Origin: Tannerella sp.
Lineage (GTDB): Bacteria; Bacteroidota; Bacteroidia; Bacteroidales; Tannerellaceae
DNA length: 13,959 bases
NCBI GenBank assembly: GCA_031268395.1
Contig: JAIRXI010000079.1
Coordinates: 1 to 13,959 of the forward strand
Direction of reading: 5' to 3'
Part shown: piece after piece, positions 1 to 11,463 of the stretch
Position numbering within the stretch: the first letter of the stretch is position 1
How the letters are laid out: each line of letters opens with the position of its first letter
Notes under the pieces: generated by a model
The model's database searches: none
What the model was told of the DNA's origin: nothing
What the model saw: the letters and a program-made list of their open reading frames with translations, nothing else
Made by a program: the position numbers and the translations under genes

Positions 1-171
1 AGGAACGAAGCAATCGCAGTAGCGGAAAGCTTAGCTGTTTACTTCTACGTTTATATCAACCGGATGAATGAAACGAATAACCGTATCAAGCGGCTCAAAA
101 AAAAGAATCAGCATAAATTTCAATATAAAATAACAGTAAAAAAATTTCAAGATGAGAACAAAGACAATTAG
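1..171 (+). CDS. Possible 3' end of an upstream gene (partial, unidentified)
   Basis: Frame 1 is open from the window edge to a TAG at 169-171, giving about 56 residues with no start codon visible near the edge. The first 20 residues are fairly hydrophobic with several Tyr and Ala, and are followed by a Lys/Arg/Asn-rich tail. That would suit the C-terminus of a membrane-anchored or basic protein, but I recognise no family. The last third is A-rich and looks more like intergenic DNA. If real, it overlaps the start of the OsmC-like lipoprotein gene by 20 bases, implying co-transcription. An open run of this length can occur by chance, so this is a weak call. Confidence 0.3.
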   Translation, partial: RNEAIAVAESLAVYFYVYINRMNETNNRIKRLKKKNQHKFQYKITVKKFQDENKDN

Positions 172-1435
172 ACCATTCCGTATTTTATCTGCCATCCTGG
201 TGGCAGTGTTTGTAACCCTTTCCTGCACCCGGCATCAGGCCGGCGACGGCGTGACGCTGCCCGATTTTCAGCAGCGTCGCCTGGCTGCGCTCCGGGCGCT
301 CGAAAAAACGCCTTCCGACCGGATTCAACCCATCCGCCTAGAAGTCCGCACCACGGCCGAACAGCGTGCCGGCGTGCGCCGCATCCGCATCCGCGGACAT
401 CAGATCATCAGCGACAGCGACTACTCGTTTGCCGGCTACAGCCTCGGCCCCGGCTCGCCCGAATCGTCGCTCACCGCCATCGCCAGCGACCTGGCCGACG
501 CCTTCCTCAGTCAGGCCGCCCTCCAGGGCGTGCCCGTCGACTCGCTCGGCGTATCCATCACCAGCCGCCGCGATTCGGTACCGCCCGCCGTGCGGATCGT
601 TCATCCGCACAACCTGCTTTACACGATCTATGTGAAGTCGCCGGCCACCGACACGCAGCTGGAAGAAATCCGCCTGCTTGCCGAACAGCATTCGCCCGCC
701 TTCAACATCGCGTCGGTCAGGCAAGCCGTCAGCGGCGACATTGATTACGTGCAAACGCCGTGGGACCTGACCTTCGAGCCGCCCTATCAGCCCGGGCTGC
801 GCGAATACCTCAAATACAAGCGGGCGGCCCTGCTGGCCCGCTCCGGACGCCGGCAGGCCGCCGACAGCAACCGCCGCAACCCGGCCGGCGAACCGTCGCA
901 GCGTCAGCCCGACACGGCGAATCTCCCGGCCGCGCAGGAGCCGCAGCCCCAGCTCGACCGCCTGCATGTGGAAATCGACCCCGTTTCGGGTGCGCGCAAG
1001 GTGCATATCCGTCATTTCAACTTTATTCACGACCACTCGCCGCTGTATGCAGGCCAGGACCTCGGCCCCAGTTCGCTGGAACACCAGCTGGGCGCCCTCA
1101 CGAGCTGCATCACCCACATCACCGAGATTCAGGCCGCCTCGCGCGAAATAACGCTCGACACCCTCTACGTGACCGCCGAAGCCCTTTACGACCCGCGCGC
1201 AGGCCGGCCGGGTTTTGAAGACATTCCGGCCTGGCCATACGATATTCATTATACCGTACATTACCGCTCGCCCCACAGCTACGACGAAATCGTCGCCCTG
1301 CGCGACGCCGTCGAAGCGGTGTGCCCGATCTACAACCTCTTTCTTTCCGAACAGAAAATAGAAGGGCGCATCGTGCGCGACAACCCGGATGCTTACCGTC
1401 TCCATCCGCAGTTTTATTATCACTATAAAGATTAA
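152..1435 (+). CDS. Lipoprotein with two tandem OsmC-like domains
   Basis: The 427-residue product starts with a basic N-terminus, a hydrophobic stretch and a lipobox (TLSC, Cys25), so it should be a lipoprotein outside the cytoplasm. Residues about 61-190 and about 268-400 align with each other and with the OsmC/Ohr fold. The second copy has the GPSSLEHQLGALTSC helix (Cys319) and a CPIYNLF motif (Cys391), the two positions of the OsmC redox cysteines. In the first copy the equivalents are Asp113 and Ser181, so it is probably redox-dead. A Pro/Gln/Arg-rich linker (about 190-267) joins the two. OsmC/Ohr proteins reduce organic hydroperoxides, normally in the cytoplasm as small single-domain dimers; a lipidated tandem form is unusual. 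The gene is visibly richer in G+C than its neighbours. It lies 12 bases before the S9 peptidase gene. Domain assignment is by motif reading; peroxidase activity is inference. Confidence 0.8.
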   Translation: MRTKTIRPFRILSAILVAVFVTLSCTRHQAGDGVTLPDFQQRRLAALRALEKTPSDRIQPIRLEVRTTAEQRAGVRRIRIRGHQIISDSDYSFAGYSLGPGSPESSLTAIASDLADAFLSQAALQGVPVDSLGVSITSRRDSVPPAVRIVHPHNLLYTIYVKSPATDTQLEEIRLLAEQHSPAFNIASVRQAVSGDIDYVQTPWDLTFEPPYQPGLREYLKYKRAALLARSGRRQAADSNRRNPAGEPSQRQPDTANLPAAQEPQPQLDRLHVEIDPVSGARKVHIRHFNFIHDHSPLYAGQDLGPSSLEHQLGALTSCITHITEIQAASREITLDTLYVTAEALYDPRAGRPGFEDIPAWPYDIHYTVHYRSPHSYDEIVALRDAVEAVCPIYNLFLSEQKIEGRIVRDNPDAYRLHPQFYYHYKD

Positions 1436-1447
1436 GAATACATCATT

Positions 1448-3475
1448 ATGAACAGAAAAATTGTTTTGTTTGTCATACCTTTTGTTTTGACGGTTTTGAC
1501 GGCGGCGGCTCAGTCCGCCGCCCGAAAACCGGTTGGCAGCGATTTCTTCACACAGGTGAAACGCATCGCAAACCTCAACATCTCGGACGGCAACATCTTC
1601 TTTACCGTCAGTCAGGCCGACCGGGAAAAGAACAGCTATTCGACCGCCCTCTATCAGCTGGTCGATAATCGGCCGGTGAAGATCGCCAAAGACGTTTCCG
1701 ACTATTTCTTTCAGGACGGCGGAATTATTTTCAGGGAAAGAAGAGAAAGCGCCCGCGACAGCAGAAGCGCCGAACTCGAAGAGCCTCCGTCAACCGCTTT
1801 CTTGAAACTGGACTCCGGTTACGGCGAAGCGGACGAATGGCTGAAGCTGCCCTTCCTGGCCGCCCAAATCGAATGGATCGAAAAAGACGTATTCTTCTAT
1901 ACCTCTTCTTATCACCGCAACCCGGATAAAAGCCGGAACTGGCATATTTACGACGAACTGCCCTTCTGGTCGAACGGCAGAGGCGATGTCAGCGGCCGGC
2001 GCACGCACCTTTATTTCTATCATAAGGGCGAAAGCCGGCTACTGTCCGACACGCTGGCGTCAGTTTCGAGCCTCCGGTTAAGTCCCGATAAAAAAACGCT
2101 GGTCTATACGCTCAAGCCGGCATGGTACGGCAAACAGCCCGAAGGCAACGTGCTGGTAACGCTCGACGTCGCGTCGCTCGAAAAAAAGGAATGGAACCTG
2201 TTCGACCGGGCGTCGTATGGCAACATCATCTTTCTCAACAGCGACGAAATCGTACTGACCGTCAACCGCAGCCTGGAGCATGACAGAATTGAAAACGCCG
2301 CCATCTACCGCCTCCATCTCCGTACCGGTCAACCGACGCTGATCAACGACGGCGCACGCTATGCCGTCGGCAACAGCATCGGATCGGATGTGGGCGGAGG
2401 AGGCCGGCCGGAAATTACGTTCGACGACAAAGGCATCCGTTTCGTTACGACCGACGTCGATTATGCGCCGCTCGTTCACCTGGCCTGGAACGGCGCCGTC
2501 ACGCCCCTGTCGAAGGGACGTATTTCGATCGGGGAATACCAGCCTTACCGGGACGGTTTTCTCGCCATCGGCCTCGAAGAACAGCAGGGAGCCGAAATCT
2601 ATTTCATCGACAAAAAAGGAAATGCTGCGCCGCTGACGGCCATCAACAGGCCGGTTTTTGATGAGTACGACATCGTAAAACCCGTCGAAATAAAGTACAC
2701 CGGCAACACAGGCCGTGAACTGAACGGGTATGTCCTCCCGCCCGCCCATTACGAAAAAGGGCGGAAATACCCCGCCATACTCGACATTCACGGCGGCCCG
2801 AGAACGGCTTACGGTACGGTTTTCTTCCACGAAATGCAATACTGGGCCAGCGAAGGCTATGCCGTATTCTTCACCAACCCGGCGGGCAGTTCGGGACGCG
2901 GCTCGGCGTTTTCCGACATCCGCGGCAAGGTGGGCGAAACCGACTACGACGACCTGATCGCTTTTACCGACGCCGTGCTTGCGCAGACCGACTTCATCGA
3001 CGCCGACCGCCTGGGCGTGACCGGCGGTTCCTACGGCGGACTGATGACCAACTGGATCATCGGGCAAACCGACCGTTTCAAGGCGGCGGCTTCCCAGCGC
3101 GGCATCTCGTCGTGGCTCTCGTTCAGCAATACCAGCGATATAGGTTACAGTTTTACTTATACTTACTGGGGCACGGACATCTGGAAAAACGGGCAGCGGC
3201 TCTGGGACGCTTCGCCGCTGAAATATGCCGACAGGGTGAAAACGCCCACGCTCTTTATTCACAGCGAACAGGATTACCGCTGCTGGCTGGTCGAAGGCTT
3301 GCAGATGTACAGCGCCCTGCAATATTTCGGCGTCCCGTCGCGGATCGTCGTTTTTGAAAACGAAAACCACGAACTGTCGCGTTCGGGAAAACCGCAAAAC
3401 CGCATCAAACGCCTGGAAGAAATAAAGGGATGGTTTGACAGGTATCTGAAAGAAGACGTTTCAACTGAAAAATAG
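1448..3475 (+). CDS. Exported S9-family (prolyl oligopeptidase-like) serine peptidase
   Basis: The 675-residue product has an N-terminal signal peptide (hydrophobic core to about Ala21, no lipobox Cys), so a periplasmic location is expected. Residues about 30-400 are beta-rich and fit the propeller that gates substrate entry in S9 enzymes. Residues about 410-670 form the alpha/beta-hydrolase domain, with HGGP (448-451) for the oxyanion hole, the nucleophile elbow GGSYGG with Ser528, Asp609 in HSEQDY, and His641 in ENHEL. The triad is complete and the length is normal for the S9C (acylaminoacyl-peptidase/oligopeptidase) branch. Such enzymes cleave short peptides. Its position 12 bases after the OsmC-like gene and 51 bases before the SusC gene suggests it processes peptides brought in by that transporter. 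The exact specificity (dipeptidyl, acylaminoacyl or endopeptidase) cannot be read from the sequence. Confidence 0.9.
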   Translation: MNRKIVLFVIPFVLTVLTAAAQSAARKPVGSDFFTQVKRIANLNISDGNIFFTVSQADREKNSYSTALYQLVDNRPVKIAKDVSDYFFQDGGIIFRERRESARDSRSAELEEPPSTAFLKLDSGYGEADEWLKLPFLAAQIEWIEKDVFFYTSSYHRNPDKSRNWHIYDELPFWSNGRGDVSGRRTHLYFYHKGESRLLSDTLASVSSLRLSPDKKTLVYTLKPAWYGKQPEGNVLVTLDVASLEKKEWNLFDRASYGNIIFLNSDEIVLTVNRSLEHDRIENAAIYRLHLRTGQPTLINDGARYAVGNSIGSDVGGGGRPEITFDDKGIRFVTTDVDYAPLVHLAWNGAVTPLSKGRISIGEYQPYRDGFLAIGLEEQQGAEIYFIDKKGNAAPLTAINRPVFDEYDIVKPVEIKYTGNTGRELNGYVLPPAHYEKGRKYPAILDIHGGPRTAYGTVFFHEMQYWASEGYAVFFTNPAGSSGRGSAFSDIRGKVGETDYDDLIAFTDAVLAQTDFIDADRLGVTGGSYGGLMTNWIIGQTDRFKAAASQRGISSWLSFSNTSDIGYSFTYTYWGTDIWKNGQRLWDASPLKYADRVKTPTLFIHSEQDYRCWLVEGLQMYSALQYFGVPSRIVVFENENHELSRSGKPQNRIKRLEEIKGWFDRYLKEDVSTEK

Positions 3476-3526: not shown

Positions 3527-6500
3527 ATGATAAACATAAAAACATTTTATTGCCTGGTTCTCCTTTTCTTCCTGCCTGTTTTTACATCCGCACAGGAAGG
3601 AGGAGTGAATCTGAGCGGAACCGTAGTAGATGAGCAAACCGGCGAGGCGGTGATCGGAGCAAGCGTATCCATTTCCGGATCGCGCAGCGGGACGGTAACG
3701 GATATCGACGGGCGCTTTTCGCTGGAGGCCGGTTCGCTGCCGGTGACGGTTTCGGTGGCTTACATGGGGTATAAATATCAGGAAATGGATATTTATGACG
3801 CGGAAAATGAAATAGTGGTTTATCTAAAGGAAAACTACTATTTGCTGAACGAAATCGTCGTTGTCGGATACGGGACGCAAAACCGGAAGGAATTTACCGG
3901 TTCCGTAGCGACTGTTCAGGGAGATCACATCAAAGACCTGCCGGTTCAGAGCTTTGAGCAGGCCTTGCAGGGCAAAGCCGCCGGGGTCAGCATATCGCTG
4001 CCTACCGGTGTGCTGAATGCAGCGCCGGTGGTCAGGATAAGGGGCGTCAATTCCATTTCGCTGAGTTCGTTCCCGCTGGTAGTGGTCGACGGAATACCTG
4101 TAACCACAGGCGATATATCGACTACCCATGCGGCCAACAATCCGCTGAGCGATATCAATCCGTCGGATATTGAATCGATAGATATTCTTAAAGATGCCGC
4201 ATCGACAGCCATTTATGGCTCGCGGGCGTCGGCGGGCGTCATCCTGATTACGACCAAACAGGGTAAAGTCGGCAAAACCGTTACCACTTACGACGCATGG
4301 GTGGGCGTAACCAATGCCGTGAGGCTTCCCACGGTGCTGAACGCCCAGCAATACACCGATCTGAAGAACGAAGCCATCGCCAACCGGAACGAAATCGCCG
4401 GCCGGAACGACCCGGACGCCTATTTTCTCTCCTACCGTCCCGACGGTTCCGTCACAGATACGCGATGGCGCGACTATATTTACCGGACGGCGATCTCGCA
4501 CAATCATACGGCCGGCATTTCGGGAGGGACGGAAAAGACGCGGTTCTATTTTTCCGCCAATTATTCCGACCAGGAAGGTTTTCTGGTGGGAAACGACTAC
4601 ACGCGGAAAAGCATGCGCTTCAATATAGACAATAAAGTAACACAGTGGCTCAACCTTACCGGAGGAGGCTCGTATGGGGTTACGTCCAACCGGTCGTTCG
4701 ATTCCGGAAGCTTGCCGGGCGAGTCGATGACGACCACCGGCGTTACCCGTCTGGCGCTGGTGTTGCCGCCCAATGTGCCGGCATACAATGCCGACGGAAG
4801 CTTTAACGTGAATCCGGCCAGCAACGGCACGCTGGGGAAAGGCAACAATACGGCCAATATTCCGCTCTACAATCCGGTTTCGCTGTTTGCGCTCACTTCC
4901 AATCAATCGGAGAACAGTCATTTCAACGGCAACATGGCACTCGCCATTCATCCTTTCAAACAGGTTGAGATCAAAACACTGTATGCCCTCGACCGCCTGA
5001 AACGGGACGATCATACCTGGGGCAGTCCCGATCTGGGATCAGATTCGTACGGTTCGGGCGGTTCGGCTACCGCTATTTCCGATTTGCGTCAGCACGAAAC
5101 ATGGACCAATACGGTCCGTTACAGCGACCGGTTCGGCCTGAAGCATCATCTGAGCGCACTCGCGGGATCTGATTTGCAGAAAATCCTGCGTTCTTCGTGG
5201 GGCGCGCGGGCAACGCAGGCCTCGGACAACTTTTTTGAATACTATCAGGGCGGCTGGGGAAATATTGCGGCCACAGGCAACAGCATGGGGGAACGGTTTT
5301 TTTCTTCCTTCTTTGCCAGGTTGAGTTACGATTTCAACGAACGGTACTTCATCACCGGAAATTTCCGCAGAGACGGCAACTCGGCGCTGGCCGTCGGGAA
5401 AAAATACGGCAACTTCGGCGGCATTTCCGGCAGTTGGCTGCTGTCGGAAGAGGCCTTCTTCAAGACGCTGAATGTCGCGCCTCTGCTCAGCAATGTGAAA
5501 CTGTCGGCCAGCTGGGGACGAGTCGGAAACGGAAACCTGTCGAACGATTACAGTTCGTATGATTTATATTCGGCGTCCCTGTATGGCAACGCCGCCACAT
5601 GGTCCATCACCCAGCAGGGCAATTCCGAACTGAGCTGGGAGACCAGCGACCAGACCAATCTCAGTTTAAGTTTCAACGCGCTGCGAAACAGGCTGGCCGT
5701 CGAAGCGGCTTATTTCAACAACAATGTGAACGGATTAATACTCAGTTCTCCTCAGTCGCCCTCCAAAGGGATTCCCGACAATGCCATCCTTGCCAATGTC
5801 GGATCGCTGTATAACCGCGGCGTTGAACTGTCGGCCGACGCACATGTGATCGAATCGAGAATACTGTCGTGGAACGTATCCTTCAATCTGACGACTGTTG
5901 CGAACAAGGTAACTTCTCTTGCCGAAGGCAATGAAGACATCATCGGCTCGACCGGCAGCGGGAATACCAACATCACCCGTGCAGGCGAGCCGATCGGCAG
6001 TTTGTACGGACTGAAAAGCCTTTATGTAAATCCCGAAAACGGACGGCGCGTATTCCTCAATGCGGCCGGCGAAGAAGTTCAGTACGACGGCGTCAGCGCA
6101 TGGTCGTATCTCGACGGCCGCCCGGCTGCCGCACTGACGGGAGTCGACTACTATGTGCTCGGTAACGCCCTGCCCAAATGGTACGGCGGATTGAACAGCC
6201 ACCTGCGATACAGGCGCTTCGATCTGGACTTGCAGTTTACGTATGCCGGCGGCCACCGCGTGATGAACCGCACCCGCTCGACCCTGACCGACCAGATATT
6301 TTTCAACAATTCCACAGAAATACTGGACCGCTGGACCACTCCCGGACAGCAAACCGATGTGCCGCGGGCCGTCAACGGCGACAGGATTTCGTTTGGCGGT
6401 TCCCTGCCCATCGCAGCGCATGTGGAGAAAGGCGATTTTCTCCGCCTGCAGAACGTTGTCCTGGCATACAATTTCTCTTCCCGCCTCCTTTCGGCCACCG

Positions 6501-6676
6501 GATTGAGCGCCGTCAGGATCTACGGACAGGTCAGCAACGCATTCCTGTTCACCGGATATACCGGCACAGACCCGGAAGTTTCGGCCAACGGCAATTCCAA
6601 CACCACGCCAGGCGTCGAATACAATACCGCCGGCCTCGGGCGAACCTTTACGCTCGGAATCAATGTCAAATTTTAA
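3527..6676 (+). CDS. SusC/RagA-family TonB-dependent outer-membrane transporter
   Basis: The 1049-residue product has a signal peptide ending near SAQ (21-23). A carboxypeptidase-regulatory-like beta-sandwich domain follows (about 27-101, with SGTVVDEQTGEAVIGASV), then the SusC signature EIVVVGYG (109-116), a plug domain (about 120-245, with VRIRGVNS, VVVDGIP and DIESIDILKDAAS) and a long 22-strand-type barrel ending in an aromatic Phe (LGINVKF). This is the standard SusC architecture without the STN anti-sigma-interacting domain, so trans-envelope signalling through it is not expected. SusC proteins pair with a SusD lid and import oligosaccharides or, as in RagAB, peptides, powered by TonB. 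With a peptidase and no glycoside hydrolase beside it, peptide import is a reasonable guess. The 51-base gap before it holds no clear TAnnTTTG promoter, so read-through from upstream is likely. Confidence 0.95.
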   Translation: MINIKTFYCLVLLFFLPVFTSAQEGGVNLSGTVVDEQTGEAVIGASVSISGSRSGTVTDIDGRFSLEAGSLPVTVSVAYMGYKYQEMDIYDAENEIVVYLKENYYLLNEIVVVGYGTQNRKEFTGSVATVQGDHIKDLPVQSFEQALQGKAAGVSISLPTGVLNAAPVVRIRGVNSISLSSFPLVVVDGIPVTTGDISTTHAANNPLSDINPSDIESIDILKDAASTAIYGSRASAGVILITTKQGKVGKTVTTYDAWVGVTNAVRLPTVLNAQQYTDLKNEAIANRNEIAGRNDPDAYFLSYRPDGSVTDTRWRDYIYRTAISHNHTAGISGGTEKTRFYFSANYSDQEGFLVGNDYTRKSMRFNIDNKVTQWLNLTGGGSYGVTSNRSFDSGSLPGESMTTTGVTRLALVLPPNVPAYNADGSFNVNPASNGTLGKGNNTANIPLYNPVSLFALTSNQSENSHFNGNMALAIHPFKQVEIKTLYALDRLKRDDHTWGSPDLGSDSYGSGGSATAISDLRQHETWTNTVRYSDRFGLKHHLSALAGSDLQKILRSSWGARATQASDNFFEYYQGGWGNIAATGNSMGERFFSSFFARLSYDFNERYFITGNFRRDGNSALAVGKKYGNFGGISGSWLLSEEAFFKTLNVAPLLSNVKLSASWGRVGNGNLSNDYSSYDLYSASLYGNAATWSITQQGNSELSWETSDQTNLSLSFNALRNRLAVEAAYFNNNVNGLILSSPQSPSKGIPDNAILANVGSLYNRGVELSADAHVIESRILSWNVSFNLTTVANKVTSLAEGNEDIIGSTGSGNTNITRAGEPIGSLYGLKSLYVNPENGRRVFLNAAGEEVQYDGVSAWSYLDGRPAAALTGVDYYVLGNALPKWYGGLNSHLRYRRFDLDLQFTYAGGHRVMNRTRSTLTDQIFFNNSTEILDRWTTPGQQTDVPRAVNGDRISFGGSLPIAAHVEKGDFLRLQNVVLAYNFSSRLLSATGLSAVRIYGQVSNAFLFTGYTGTDPEVSANGNSNTTPGVEYNTAGLGRTFTLGINVKF

Positions 6677-6686
6677 TTATTCCTCA

Positions 6687-8132
6687 ATGAAAACAACGTT
6701 ATTTCAATTATTTTCGGCCGTCGTCCTGATGGTTCCGGTATGTTCATGCAATGATTTACTGGACACGACGTCCAAAACATCGCTCAGTTCGGCCAGCGTC
6801 TTCGACACGCCGGACAGGATCGAAGCCTTAGTGAACGGCGCATACAAATCGCTCAAAAGCGCCGATCTCTACAGCGGGCGACTGCTGCACTGCAACGACC
6901 TGCGCGGAGAAGAATTTATCTGCCTGACCGAAAATTCACTGGGCGGCGGATATGCATGGCAGCAAAACCTGTCGAGCACAACAGGCGAAGTGAACAGCAT
7001 CTGGTCTCAGGCATACCGGCTTATCAACAATGCAAACATCCTGATTGCCGGATTATCCCGGTCCGAAGGGATTCTTTCCGACGAAGCCAAAAAGAACTAT
7101 GCCGGCGAAGCGCATTTCCTTCGGGCGCTGGCCTATTTTACACTGGTAACAACCTATGCCCGCCCTTACACGGATGGCGACGGAAATAACCGTGGCGTAC
7201 CTCTCCGCCTGCTGCCGGAATCGACTTCCGAAAACAACGATCTGGAGCGGAGCGACGTAAAAATTATCTACGAACAGATCATCAACGATCTGGATGCGGC
7301 CGAACTTTATCTGCCGGAACAGTATGCAACCGCTTTGCAGAACACCGTGCGCGCACATAAAAACACCGCCATCGCGCTGAAGACAAGGGTGTACCTGAGC
7401 AAACACGATTTTGCCGGGGTAAGGGAAGAAGCGCGAAAAATAGTGGCGCAGGAACAGGCGCCGTTTTCTTCCGTTTCGGGCGTGCAGCATCAGTTACAAA
7501 GCAATATCACCGAAATCTTTTCATCCGATTACACGACCGGCGAATCGATTTTTTCCATGCCGATGTCTGCTGCCGATCCTCCGTCGGGTTCGGCGCTGGC
7601 CACAGTGTATCACAGCGCGCCGAACTATGCGCTGAACCATACGGCGCCGGGCATTCTCACGGCCTCCGAATGGACAGACACGGACGCCCGCCGCTCATTC
7701 GTCAGGGAACAGGCCGGTCTGTATTATCTCACCAAGTTCTCCAAAGTCAGCCCGGCCATCGACTATATCCCCGTGATCCGTTACGCGGAAGTCCTGCTCA
7801 ATTATGCCGAAGCCGAGATCCGCGGAGGCGGCGCTGTCAGCAAGGCCATCGCGCTGCTCGAAGCGGTACGGCACCGCTCCGATCCCGGCTATCATTTCCC
7901 GGAAAGCCAGCTGACGGCAGACCGGCTCCTCCATACCATACGTATCGAGCGGCGCATCGAACTGCTGGGCGAAGGCTTCCGGTCGACCGATATTCTGCGC
8001 GACCTGCTGACATTCCCCGACAAGCCTTCCCGCAGCAGCTATACATCGCGCGAAGTGAAGCCGGACGACGAAGGATATGTATTCCCCCTGCCAAACAGCG
8101 AAATACTGACAAATAAACTTTTACTGAACTAA
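6687..8132 (+). CDS. SusD/RagB-family surface lipoprotein
   Basis: The product is 481 residues if started at the ATG at 6687. An in-frame ATG at 6663 exists but would overlap the SusC gene by 14 bases and add eight polar residues before a normal signal peptide, so 6687 is preferred. It has a lipoprotein signal ending VCSC (Cys21). Next come the SusD hallmarks: DLLDTTSKTSLSSASVF, the VNGAYKSL helix, IWSQAYRLINNANILI, and the AGEAHFLRALAYFTLVTTYA TPR helix pair. RYAEVLLNYAEAEIR and a short C-terminal segment (FPLPNSEI) complete the family pattern. The protein caps the SusC barrel on the cell surface and captures substrate. It begins 10 bases after the SusC stop and ends 10 bases before the TlpA-like gene. 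Length is within the usual range. Its ligand cannot be predicted from sequence. Confidence 0.94.
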   Translation: MKTTLFQLFSAVVLMVPVCSCNDLLDTTSKTSLSSASVFDTPDRIEALVNGAYKSLKSADLYSGRLLHCNDLRGEEFICLTENSLGGGYAWQQNLSSTTGEVNSIWSQAYRLINNANILIAGLSRSEGILSDEAKKNYAGEAHFLRALAYFTLVTTYARPYTDGDGNNRGVPLRLLPESTSENNDLERSDVKIIYEQIINDLDAAELYLPEQYATALQNTVRAHKNTAIALKTRVYLSKHDFAGVREEARKIVAQEQAPFSSVSGVQHQLQSNITEIFSSDYTTGESIFSMPMSAADPPSGSALATVYHSAPNYALNHTAPGILTASEWTDTDARRSFVREQAGLYYLTKFSKVSPAIDYIPVIRYAEVLLNYAEAEIRGGGAVSKAIALLEAVRHRSDPGYHFPESQLTADRLLHTIRIERRIELLGEGFRSTDILRDLLTFPDKPSRSSYTSREVKPDDEGYVFPLPNSEILTNKLLLN

Positions 8133-8142
8133 AAACAAATCA

Positions 8143-9156
8143 ATGAAACATTGGACAACAACTCATCTTGTCGCCTTCCTGTCCGTCCTGATGCTGACGG
8201 CCGGATGCGCAAAAGATCCCGGGCGTCTGAATCTGTCGGGCGTCGTAAAAAACATTTCTTCCGGCGTGATCTATCTGCAACGCTACGAAAACAAATCGTT
8301 TTTCACGATTGATTCAGCCGCTGTCATCGACGGGAAATTTCGTTTCGACACAAAGGTCCGGCTGCCGGAAATATACGGGCTGGCGATCGACGATTCGGGC
8401 AATCCGTTTCACTCGTTTATCCTCTTTCTGGATCATAACAAAATTACGGTGGAACTGGATACCGTCCACGAATTTAAGCACACCGTGGTTTCAGGCTCTG
8501 TCGAGCAGGATTTGCTGAACGAATTTACCGGAAAGTATCGGACGCCCGTCAGCGAGATACTGAAAAGCCATCCCAAGTCGCTGGCGGCCCTGTACACTTT
8601 TTACAGATATTATTCCTACCGTCTGTCGCCGGACGAAATACGTGAAAACCTGCGGTTAGTCGATCCGTCGTTCGCCGGTTCGGAATACGTGAAAACCCTT
8701 CAGGAGCTGGCCGATCATCTCGAAAAGGTATCCGTAGGCAGCAAAGCGCCCGATTTCCGGGCGAAGACGGCGGATGGAAACACCGCGTCTCTGTCCGAAT
8801 ACCTCGGGAAAGGCTATGTGCTGATTGATTTCTGGGCGTCGTGGTGCATCCCCTGCCGCGAAGAGAGTCCCGCCTTGAAAGCGGTCTATCACAAATACAG
8901 GGACAAAGGGATTGAATTTATCGGCGTTTCGCTCGATCACAAATCCGAACGCTGGCTCGAAGCGGTCCGGCAGGATGAGTTGCCCTGGATTCAATGGATA
9001 GATTACAGCACCTGGGGCGGCGAAGGCGTAAAGACTTACGGCGTGAGACTGATTCCGTACAAGTTTCTGATCAACAAAGAAGGCGTAATCGTCGCCAAAA
9101 ACCTCCGGGGCGCGGATCTGGACAAACTGCTCGAAACATATTTGGATGCCCTGTAA
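8143..9156 (+). CDS. TlpA-like thioredoxin lipoprotein with N-terminal DUF4369
   Basis: The 337-residue product has a lipobox LTAGC (Cys22), placing it on the periplasmic side of a membrane. Residues about 30-115 match the DUF4369 beta-sandwich (LSGVVKNISSGVIYLQRYEN, then an IDSAAVIDGKFRF-type strand). Residues about 196-337 form a TlpA/ResA-type thioredoxin fold with WASWCIPC (Cys235, Cys238) and the cis-proline at IP (304-305), so the redox centre is intact. The segment between the two domains (about 118-195) looks shorter than in typical DUF4369-TlpA proteins, which usually carry a longer charged helix pair there; I judge this from memory of the family. These proteins reduce or exchange disulfides outside the cytoplasm and often accompany SusCD loci. 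It is the last gene of the five-gene run and could supply reductant to the OsmC-like domain encoded at the other end. Confidence 0.92.
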   Translation: MKHWTTTHLVAFLSVLMLTAGCAKDPGRLNLSGVVKNISSGVIYLQRYENKSFFTIDSAAVIDGKFRFDTKVRLPEIYGLAIDDSGNPFHSFILFLDHNKITVELDTVHEFKHTVVSGSVEQDLLNEFTGKYRTPVSEILKSHPKSLAALYTFYRYYSYRLSPDEIRENLRLVDPSFAGSEYVKTLQELADHLEKVSVGSKAPDFRAKTADGNTASLSEYLGKGYVLIDFWASWCIPCREESPALKAVYHKYRDKGIEFIGVSLDHKSERWLEAVRQDELPWIQWIDYSTWGGEGVKTYGVRLIPYKFLINKEGVIVAKNLRGADLDKLLETYLDAL

Positions 9157-9756: not shown

Positions 9757-10797
9757 TCAGGCATTGAAAAACGGGCTTACCAGGAGATACGTCAGTGCGG
9801 CAAGAAGGGCGCTTACGGGGATGGTCAATATCCATGCCCAGAGCAGGTGGATGGTTACGCCCCAGCGGACGGCGGACAGCCGTTTGACGGCTCCCGCTCC
9901 CATGATGCTCCCGGTGATTACGTGCGTCGTACTTACCGGGACTTTCAATATTTCCGTGGCAAACAGCGTCAGTGCGCCCGACGCCTCTGCGCAGAAACCT
10001 TCCACGGCCGTCAGTTTGGTGATTTTGTGGCCCATCGTTTTCATGATTTTCCATCCGCCGGACATCGTTCCCAGCGCAATGGCCGTAAAGCAGGTCAGCG
10101 GAACCCAGTCGTGCATGTCGTGCATGTCGTTCAGTCGCAGCCAGTGTGGCAGGGTAGCAGAGCCGGCCGTTGTGTTGAAGGCGATCAGCGCTACGCCAAT
10201 GATGCCCATCACTTTCTGCGAGTCGTTCAGCCCGTGACCGATGCTCAGGAGCGCCGAAGAGGCAAGCTGCAGCCGCCTGAACCACTGTTCCGCGCTGCGC
10301 GGTTTGGCTCTCCGGGCGACGTGCAGGGTCACAATCGTGATGAGGCTCCCGCCAATCATCCCCAGCAGGGGCGCGATGATGATGAAGGCGGCAATCAGCC
10401 CGATCACCCCGCGGTTGATCGAAAGGAAACCGCCGCAGGCAATCGCCGCGCCGGAGAATCCGCCGATCAGCGTGTGCGACGACGACGAGGGGATGCCGAA
10501 CCACCATGTGATGAGGTTCCAGATGATGGCCGCCACCAGGCCGGAAAAGATGACCGGCAGCGTGATAAAGTCGGCAAACACCGTTTTGGATACCGTATTG
10601 GCGATGCCGAAATCGCCGATGAGGTATTTGGCTATGAAAAAAGCGACAAAATTGAATGCCGCCGCCCAGATCACCGCCTGCAGAGGAGTGAGTACCTTGG
10701 TCGAGACAATCGTGGCGATGGAATTGGCCGCATCATGAAAACCGTTGATAAAGTCGAATATAACGGCAAGGAGGATGATGATAACAAGTAATGTCAT
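9757..10797 (-). CDS. Pit-family inorganic phosphate transporter
   Basis: The 346-residue product is almost entirely hydrophobic, with about nine to ten membrane segments, and carries both halves of the inverted Pit repeat. The first half shows GFHDAANSIAT (19-29) and the GIPSSSSHTLIGG loop (101-113). The second shows GHGLNDSQKVMG (187-198) and VPVSTTHVITGSIMG (286-300). Pit proteins carry phosphate, usually as a metal-phosphate complex, into the cytoplasm with proton (or sodium) symport. It is shorter than E. coli PitA (about 500 residues), as expected for the short type that partners a DUF47 protein, whose gene ends 15 bases upstream. A small in-frame tandem repeat encodes MHDMHD (about 225-230) in a loop between membrane segments. 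Substrate is inferred from family; sulfate cannot be excluded. Confidence 0.94.
   Translation of the reverse strand: MTLLVIIILLAVIFDFINGFHDAANSIATIVSTKVLTPLQAVIWAAAFNFVAFFIAKYLIGDFGIANTVSKTVFADFITLPVIFSGLVAAIIWNLITWWFGIPSSSSHTLIGGFSGAAIACGGFLSINRGVIGLIAAFIIIAPLLGMIGGSLITIVTLHVARRAKPRSAEQWFRRLQLASSALLSIGHGLNDSQKVMGIIGVALIAFNTTAGSATLPHWLRLNDMHDMHDWVPLTCFTAIALGTMSGGWKIMKTMGHKITKLTAVEGFCAEASGALTLFATEILKVPVSTTHVITGSIMGAGAVKRLSAVRWGVTIHLLWAWILTIPVSALLAALTYLLVSPFFNA
10111..10128. repeat. 9-bp tandem repeat inside the Pit gene
   Basis: GTGCATGTC occurs twice in a row on the + strand. In the gene's frame each unit encodes Met-His-Asp, giving MHDMHD. Unit-number change would keep the frame. Confidence 0.7.
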
Positions 10798-10812
10798 GGT
10801 ATCTCTCTTGTG

Positions 10813-11463
10813 TTAAGCATATTTGACAACAATCGTTTTCAGCGTTTTACCCACATTGTTGATGCGGTTGGCGGATTTTTCCAGTTCCTGGATGATTTCC
10901 TTCTGCTTAATCAGTTCCGTCGGGCTGGTCTCTTCCCTGAACAGCCTGGAGATACCTTCTTCATAAACCACATCGGCCTTTTCTTCCAGGCGTTTGATTT
11001 CTTTTGCATGGGCACGCACGTGATTGTGGCATTTCTTGAAATTGGACAGCTTATCCACGGCTTCCAGAATTTCGGCAGTTCCCAGTTTGATGATTTCGGC
11101 CAGGAGCACAGTCGTTTCGGGCAATACTTCCGGCGAATAGAGCAGCACTTTCTGGGCCGAGCGGTTGATGGCGTCGATGACGTCGTCCATCTCGTCGGCC
11201 AGCGCGCTGATGTCTTCGCGGTCGAAAGGGGTAATGAACGTATTGTTCAGTTCTTTGAATATAAGTCCCGTGGCCCGGTCGCCCTTCACTTCTTCGGACT
11301 TGATGTCCACACACAGTCCCTTCCACAGGGATTTGTCCGGGGACGAAAACAATTGCAGCAGCCGCGTCGCCGCCTGATCCAGAATGACGGCCGTATCCTT
11401 CAACAGCGGAAAAAAACGCGGATCTTTCGGCGCAAAGATAGTAAGTATCGTATTCAGTTTCAT
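10813..11463 (-). CDS. DUF47 (PhoU-like) Pit accessory protein
   Basis: The 216-residue product is soluble, strongly charged and predicted all-helical, as in the PhoU-like DUF47/TIGR00153 family. Visible family features are the FAPKDPRFFPLL start, an acidic metal-binding-type motif in ADEMDDVIDAI, a second charged helix pair (EIKRLEEKADVVYEEGISRLF) and a coiled-coil-like C-terminus. These proteins sit next to Pit transporters and are thought to modulate phosphate uptake, by analogy with PhoU; no enzyme activity is assigned. The gene precedes the Pit gene by 15 bases, and proC ends 36 bases upstream of it. No TAnnTTTG box is visible in that gap, so transcription from the proC promoter is likely. 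Start ATG at 11461-11463 gives the normal family length. Confidence 0.93.
   Translation of the reverse strand: MKLNTILTIFAPKDPRFFPLLKDTAVILDQAATRLLQLFSSPDKSLWKGLCVDIKSEEVKGDRATGLIFKELNNTFITPFDREDISALADEMDDVIDAINRSAQKVLLYSPEVLPETTVLLAEIIKLGTAEILEAVDKLSNFKKCHNHVRAHAKEIKRLEEKADVVYEEGISRLFREETSPTELIKQKEIIQELEKSANRINNVGKTLKTIVVKYA

Follow-up and report, generated by a model that had tools for sequence, protein, structure and literature searches.

Proteins of the Ohr/OsmC group, such as E. coli OsmC and X. fastidiosa Ohr, are described as thiol peroxidases in which separate chains form homodimers with two active sites (PMC5962072), and since E. coli OsmC is called periplasmic in passing in one source (PMC3686733), a cytoplasmic location is not universally agreed for them. 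OsmC domains also occur within longer chains, as described for the hydrolase-OsmC fusions of the EstO type (PMC5113044). The gene considered here lies at positions 152 to 1435 of contig JAIRXI010000079.1 of Tannerella sp. (13,959 nucleotides, all of which were analysed and are called the window) and encodes an apparently exported protein with two OsmC domains in tandem. The fold and, in the second unit, both cysteine positions are shared with Ohr/OsmC proteins, whereas these are homodimers of separate chains and the tandem protein consists of a single exported chain that has one cysteine pair; in EstO-type fusions the partner is an alpha/beta hydrolase, whereas here it is a second OsmC domain. 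Our preferred reading, to which we give a probability of roughly 0.55, is that of an asymmetric OsmC pseudo-dimer that is exported, has one predicted thiol site and serves a SusC-SusD (SusCD) peptide-uptake locus. It is based on an observed export-type N-terminus, two whole-gene units, invariant residues, an OsmC profile match, the predicted fold and a conserved locus.

A preliminary description of this DNA knew of no characterised protein of this sort, which agrees with our non-exhaustive literature and PDB searches. Full-text searches, with subscription papers mostly outside their reach, gave no paper whose title or opening lines of the abstract describe such a tandem or exported OsmC protein. 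In the PDB, entry 9wo1 (400 residues, the second hit of the family profile) was considered as a tandem OsmC and rejected, being a hydrolase-OsmC fusion: it matches a protein of that type over its full length (E 1.4e-123). The fold and the cysteine chemistry are of known kinds; within the searches made, the tandem, asymmetric, exported and SusCD-peptidase-linked form appears to be new.

Architecture and conservation of the two units

The gene has the following parts, with residue counts referring to the alignment of 123 sequences described below.

152..1435, + strand: exported tandem-OsmC protein of 427 residues (open reading frame with ATG start; two Pfam OsmC stretches)
152..226, + strand: export signal with a plausible lipobox, T-L-S-C25 (from the sequence)
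257..307, + strand: N-terminal helix of unit 1, residues 36-52 (AlphaFold2 model; aligns with the N-terminal helix of single-domain relatives)
332..754, + strand: OsmC domain of unit 1, residues 61-201, cysteine-free
488..490, + strand: Asp113 codon, at the site of the first OsmC cysteine (Asp in 123/123)
692..694, + strand: Ser181 codon, at the site of the second OsmC cysteine (Ser in 123/123)
791..874, + strand: helix of unit 2, about residues 214-241, repeating that of unit 1 (216-241 in the AlphaFold2 model; match to single-domain relatives)
875..952, + strand: variable, low-confidence linker, residues 242-267 (predicted local distance difference test score, pLDDT, below 50 at 254-259; homologues mostly gapped at 240-250)
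953..1387, + strand: OsmC domain of unit 2, residues 268-412, with both cysteines
1106..1108, + strand: Cys319 codon (Cys in 123/123)
1322..1324, + strand: Cys391 codon (Cys in 122/123, one gap)

The residues singled out in the preliminary description, namely Asp113 and Ser181 in the first half and Cys319 and Cys391 in the second, were verified in the window protein, as was Cys25; the two-cysteine feature of the Ohr/OsmC domain is present in unit 2 and replaced by Asp and Ser in unit 1. The profile check proposed for the separate halves identified both as OsmC, the first weakly: PF02566 (OsmC; curated cut-off 27.5 bits) matched the whole protein in two stretches (54.2 bits) and the second half alone at 38.7 bits, and the first half alone scored 20.8 bits (E 5e-4), under the cut-off. 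NF041052 (OsmC_like_Se) was the sole NCBIfam model at E up to 1, with 37.5 bits against a cut-off of 95 bits, and was also the best NCBIfam model for unit 2, again below its cut-off.

The asymmetry of the two units is conserved across the family. A family search gave the best 120 of 130 proteins found, query included, and a profile search from 44 members gave the best 120 of 149, three of them new, so that 123 sequences were aligned, window protein included; in both searches, scoring was limited to the 8000 candidates with the most shared words. Besides the near-total residue counts listed above, exactly two cysteines occur from residue 54 onward in 110 of the 123 sequences (three in 12, one in 1), and the proposed pattern of Asp/Ser in one unit versus Cys/Cys in the other is invariant apart from the single gap at 391. 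Because these counts are near-total, the cysteine loss in unit 1 and the retention in unit 2 are fixed among the members compared. Moreover, R76, R81, D88 and D113 are invariant in unit 1 and R282, D294, E310 and H322 in unit 2; Glu310, Arg282, Arg76 and Arg81 are candidates for the catalytic Arg and Glu that thiol peroxidases have near the peroxidatic cysteine. Glu310 stands nine residues before Cys319 (C-9), as in E. coli YhfA, and E. coli OsmC carries a Glu at C-10 as well as at C-9; the tandem protein differs from OsmC_like_Se and YhfA-type proteins in being doubled and exported.

It could be supposed that the tandem is nonfunctional as a unit, unit 1 being a decaying copy whose cysteines were lost by drift, and the Pfam score of this unit alone, under the cut-off, is in line with such a view. 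We consider this very improbable, as it is contradicted by the conservation of D113 and S181 in all 123 sequences and by the 44-row family alignment (mean column identity 52%), in which 21 of the 41 invariant columns fall at residues 54-181; since R76, R81, D88 and D113 are also invariant, unit 1 is not decaying.

Export was scored with home-made rules for a hydrophobic N-terminus and a lipobox, and not with SignalP. By these rules, 120 of the 123 sequences have a hydrophobic export-type N-terminus, 72 with a lipobox-like Cys and 48 without, and the other three fit neither class (one has nothing before residue 36 and two are ambiguous). A stricter lipobox pattern is matched by 60 of 120 family members examined with it, the window protein not among them, its motif T-L-S-C25 being weak at -3; we take this motif to be plausible as a lipobox in Bacteroidota. 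Given the 120/123 and 72/123 counts, export looks conserved across the family and lipid anchoring variable. The proposal of a lipid-anchored, extracytoplasmic protein is thus retained as regards its export-type N-terminus, and its anchor fits only part of the family. A cytoplasmic location, a feature of the thiol peroxidases, is not indicated for the family by this home-made rule.

The AlphaFold2 prediction for the whole chain is one confident fold (predicted template modelling score, pTM, 0.85), and when unit 2 is predicted alone the mean pLDDT falls to 76. For both the whole model and unit 2 alone the top fold matches are OsmC/Ohr chains, in line with the preliminary description, and the alignments of most of these chains to the whole model begin at residues 51-63 and end at 408-415, so that they take in parts of both units. 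None of the outcomes that the preliminary description had named as refuting it was observed. GSU2788 (PDB 2opl), a single domain with Ser at its second cysteine position, is the best PDB sequence hit of the family profile (E 7e-7) and has the top structural Z for the whole model (10.6), within unit 1. The suggestion of a built-in pseudo-dimer is supported, though not proven, by the pTM, the alignments that span both units and the lower confidence of unit 2 alone, and the modelled single chain resembles an OsmC pseudo-dimer. The two units would pack as do the subunits of an OsmC homodimer, with two domains and one cysteine pair per chain in place of a homodimer with two active sites. The mature part would have two cysteines in all, both in unit 2: a peroxidatic-type Cys319 in the central helix and a resolving-type Cys391. 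These may form a disulfide and constitute a single thiol/disulfide active site at the unit interface, and unit 1 would supply the other half of the fold with conserved charged residues and no cysteine.

Relatives and origin of the tandem

An OsmC Pfam match was found in all 148 sampled Bacteroidota genomes, that of the window included. Among the 29 loci nearest to the family profile (compared loci carry L numbers), 19 have Cys/Cys, 9 have Cys/Ser and one (L047) is gapped at the second position. The Cys/Ser loci (L027, L028, L042, L048-L051, L053 and L054) represent a single-domain OsmC type of Bacteroidota with Ser at the resolving position, the same Ser as is carried by PDB 2opl.

Closer single-domain relatives were found on plasmid-collection records of Rhizobium, Variovorax, Azospirillum, Burkholderia, Paraburkholderia, Neorhizobium and Nonomuraea. 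Twenty such records match, two of them (Natronorubrum) in unit 2 only and with less than 30% identity, and in 14 records one place of about 0.5-0.8 kb covers at least 80% of the query, because both halves match one single-domain gene. These relatives, from Proteobacteria and one actinobacterium, share the N-terminal helix, the hairpin motif and the cysteine core with the tandem protein; they differ in having one domain with both cysteines and, by eye, no export signal, and the annotated ones (L174 and L178) lie near ABC importers, whereas the tandem genes lie near SusCD. The Variovorax QRF62098.1 and Rhizobium WP_131646854.1 proteins (192 and 183 residues, both cysteines present) show 47% and 43% identity with unit 2, and 36-38% with unit 1, of the window protein; across three family members the corresponding ranges are 41-52% and 27-40%. 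Six of the 13 single-domain loci (L175, L178, L179 and L184-L186) encode near-identical Rhizobium proteins, and the Neorhizobium relative (L183, around 8008-8460) is split into several pieces and is seemingly a degraded gene.

The N-terminal helix of these relatives matches residues 36-52 and again about 214-232, and the repeat unit is therefore a whole gene. The two halves had been described as aligning over about 120 residues; the repeat itself is upheld and its length has to be revised, as each unit also begins with a helix of its own. In a tree of 53 rows, in which nine of the 13 fetched relatives were used (L183-L186 being omitted as broken or near-copies), units 1 and 2 and the nine proteobacterial and actinobacterial relatives fall on one side with 100/100 support, versus 12 other Bacteroidota OsmC proteins. 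The sister groupings D1+D2 (p 0.31), D2+C (0.45) and D1+C (0.39) were tested and none was rejected, and a fusion of two already different copies may have occurred. An origin of unit 1 from the Bacteroidota Cys/Ser type (type B) was considered and set aside: a first tree joins units 1 and 2 at 100/100, with the union of unit 1 and type B not strictly rejected (AU p 0.055), and the enlarged tree places both units and the added relatives on one side at 100/100. The tandem would have originated from two copies of an OsmC gene belonging to the clade of these relatives, with an export signal added and the cysteine pair lost from unit 1.

The SusC-SusD and peptidase neighbourhood

Eighteen tandem-OsmC loci were compared: the window, 14 from the genome collection and three from a further set, whose other five stretches duplicate loci already included. 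Fifteen of the 18 were informative, with 2 kb or more of sequence before the gene. Among these 15, there are 12 in which a SusC gene (45-100% identity with the L010 SusC) and a SusD gene (47-100%) precede the OsmC gene on the same strand; the arrangement of a SusCD accessory protein, downstream of susC-susD on the same strand and with an export-type N-terminus, thus occurs in 12/15 loci. Four genes lie between SusC-SusD and the OsmC gene in L009, and SusC is interrupted in L095. In the window the conserved pair is not visible upstream because the contig starts 151 bases before the gene. At window positions 1-168, an open frame that is already running at the contig edge extends over the start codon of the OsmC gene; judged by eye, it is unlike the SusD end seen upstream in other genomes. 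The best match to the conserved SusC in the genome of the window is 49% identical, versus 54-83% among nine SusC proteins of tandem-OsmC loci, and absence of the ortholog is not established, since the assembly is 82% complete.

Downstream of the tandem gene, the window carries the following genes.

1448..3475, + strand: S9 (prolyl oligopeptidase family) peptidase (PF00326, 187.5 bits; conserved neighbourhood)
3527..6676, + strand: SusC-like receptor, a neighbour or paralog with 33% identity and not the SusC ortholog of the conserved locus
6663..8132, + strand: SusD-like lipoprotein, partner of the SusC at 3527..6676
8143..9156, + strand: TlpA/ResA-like thioredoxin with W-C-I-P-C (Pfam AhpC-TSA/Redoxin), a possible, unproven reductant

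Peptidase names were assigned by Pfam. The S9 gene of the window is 64-79% identical to that of seven other tandem-OsmC loci; it is the next conserved gene in the window, L008, L009, L012, L013, L017, L018 and L020; in L097 its place is upstream of SusC. Among the 18 loci, M20 occurs in L009, L012, L013 and L020, and M14 in L009, L019 and L097 and also, with 33% identity and on the opposite strand, in L095; M14 was not found in the genome of the window (82% complete). Any of the three peptidases was found in 11 of the 18 tandem-OsmC loci and in none of 20 control SusC loci (Fisher p 2.6e-5), and leaving out the locus that supplied the query gives 10/17 (p 5.6e-5). Additionally, L008, L010, L016 and L018 carry a PBP-like gene; this candidate, upstream of SusC, was set aside with one sub-threshold Pfam hit (two proteins scanned) and a best PDB E of 0.51.

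In our preferred reading, the OsmC protein would assist, from outside the cytoplasm, a dedicated SusC-SusD importer that is equipped with S9, M20 and M14 peptidases. The presumed cargo, peptides, would pass the outer membrane and then be cut by these enzymes, and the OsmC protein would carry out a thiol step on imported material or on oxidants, reducing, exchanging or detoxifying them, perhaps with a TlpA/DsbD-type reductant.

Several points weigh against this reading. Three of the 15 informative loci are exceptions, L011 having a different SusC-SusD pair (34% and 27%) and L012 and L017 having none upstream, and 7 of the 18 loci lack S9, M20 and M14. The control SusC loci, each of 17-20 kb, came from three genomes of one other genus of the family, and the peptidase and SusC queries were drawn from tandem-OsmC loci. 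Among 17 loci with a related SusC (43-79%) in which no OsmC was found, several on short contigs, peptidases occur in three (L138, L142 and L144); as the same SusC-SusD clade occurs with peptidases and without OsmC, the OsmC gene is an optional part. The absence of OsmC from L143, L145 and L146 means little, since these stretches end at or just after SusD. Besides, no reductase is conserved beside the tandem OsmC gene, and the dimer-like arrangement of the model was judged from the first and last aligned residues rather than from coordinates. The gene is also rare, with full-length matches in 4 of 41 genomes of the genus, own included, and matches at 1e-20 in 12 of 123 genomes of the family, own included, three of them partial. 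At 1e-10, matches were found in 2 of 393 genomes of the order and 30 of 395 of the phylum, the one full-length match in each case being that of the window itself. The tandem OsmC gene is an accessory gene, and its 14 loci from the genome collection are all in Bacteroidota metagenome-assembled genomes, e.g., of Dysgonamonadaceae, Tannerellaceae and Prevotellaceae.

The same neighbourhood bears on two other explanations. The protein may be a periplasmic reductase of organic hydroperoxides or other electrophiles that protects the cell surface, SusCD being merely a convenient neighbour. OsmC and Ohr are described as thiol peroxidases (PMC5962072, PMC4069020), Glu310 (nine before Cys319) and Arg282 are invariant, and a TlpA-like thioredoxin is encoded within the window, for which the best NCBIfam model is ResA, under its cut-off. 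We nevertheless regard this explanation as unlikely: no redox gene is found among the clusters common to two or more of the 15 loci, and gut Bacteroidales are mostly anaerobic. The best model for unit 2, moreover, is the sub-cut-off OsmC_like_Se, and YhfA-type OsmC proteins are described as having no known activity (PMC8945050). A thioredoxin of this kind follows a SusD gene beside the locus both in the window and in L138:541-1533 (48% identical); the 17 tandem-OsmC loci other than the window gave no match to it at E 1e-10.

The protein might instead be a non-catalytic, SusE-like third component whose OsmC pocket holds a thiol or hydrophobic ligand for the importer. SusE/SusF-type lipoproteins sit after SusD, the place of the tandem gene is typical of them, and the cysteine-free unit 1 keeps R76, R81, D88 and D113, beyond the needs of a mere scaffold. 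Paired cysteines outside the cytoplasm, however, are normally redox-active or a structural disulfide, and both unit-2 cysteines are kept in 122 of 123 sequences, the remaining one being gapped at 391; a purely binding role thus appears quite improbable to us.

Elsewhere in the window, a PHO4-family phosphate transporter gene adjoins a PhoU_div (DUF47) gene at 9757-11463 (- strand). Between positions 1 and 9300, promoter-like sites numbered 7 against 5.0 expected from the shuffled mean and terminator-like sites 19 against 12.3 (standard deviation 3.8); neither result was used.

A possible link to sulfur

A further explanation is that the locus scavenges sulfur, cysteine-containing or other organosulfur material being imported and the OsmC protein reducing or exchanging its disulfides. 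Enzymes of Cys/Met metabolism, an SsuA-like transporter or MetH were found in 5 of the 17 OsmC-less loci (L106, L138, L147, L150 and L151) and in none of the 20 control SusC loci, and TauD, sulfonate-binding or transsulfuration genes lie near 4 of 13 single-domain relatives (annotated in Variovorax L174 and Rhizobium L178, sequence-matched in L176 and L180; 2/11 without the source loci L174 and L178) and near none of nine control OsmC/Ohr loci, the comparison being partly circular, as the markers were drawn from some of these very loci after they had been viewed. The names O-acetylhomoserine sulfhydrylase, cystathionine/methionine gamma-lyase family and SsuA-like come from NCBIfam, with several scores, indeed most, below the curated cut-offs; L151 was judged by its sequence match to L106, and MetH in L150 was identified by inspection. 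The counts exclude ABC-subunit and oxidoreductase markers as unspecific, the ATP-binding-subunit marker having matched control locus L188 and L180 besides its source; a flavin oxidoreductase marker, truncated at the edge of its locus and probably read in a wrong frame, entered none of them. Against a sulfur-scavenging role, no such gene was found in the 18 tandem-OsmC loci, and the linked symporter is slightly nearer to GltP (28%) than to the cystine carrier TcyP (25%). This symporter, which stands beside OsmC-less loci, was accordingly rejected as a cystine carrier, having also no NCBIfam name at E 1e-10. As none of the sulfur genes looked for occurs in a tandem-OsmC locus, sulfur scavenging is only a rival to our preferred reading, and a doubtful one; the sulfur link of the tandem OsmC is suggestive only.

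Some of the OsmC-less loci are of interest in their own right. In the genome of the window, L106:1-11588 has a SusC-SusD pair (SusC 49% identical to that of the conserved locus) flanked by cystathionine-type enzymes on one side and by an SsuA-like ABC transporter and an O-acetylhomoserine sulfhydrylase on the other, and looks like a SusCD locus for sulfur acquisition; the arrangement in L151, which belongs to another genome of the genus, is similar. In L138:12050-15832, an O-acetylhomoserine sulfhydrylase gene followed by NifH-like and NifD-like genes lies beside an OsmC-less SusCD-M20-M14 locus, and the NifH-like gene passes the cut-off of the NifH model; our guess is that these Nif-like genes are perhaps a nitrogenase-like organosulfur reductase and not a nitrogenase.

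In a narrower form of our preferred reading, there would be a class of nutrient-import loci whose exported asymmetric pseudo-dimer has one redox site in one unit and, in the other, a cysteine-free charged site conserved in all members compared; it would perform a dedicated reaction, thiol-disulfide or persulfide, on peptides that contain sulfur and enter through SusCD, a specificity that we put forward as a long shot. With the exported, single-chain and asymmetric form, the part played by the dimer partner in an OsmC active site can be addressed directly, and OsmC chemistry would take place where no lipoyl reductant is expected. Moreover, the tie to a SusCD-peptidase locus, if true, would add a redox step to importers that are usually described in terms of binding, transport and hydrolysis. 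Overall, the usual neighbours of the gene, which are those of peptide import and cleavage, hint at a thiol-chemistry step in nutrient uptake by some gut Bacteroidales.
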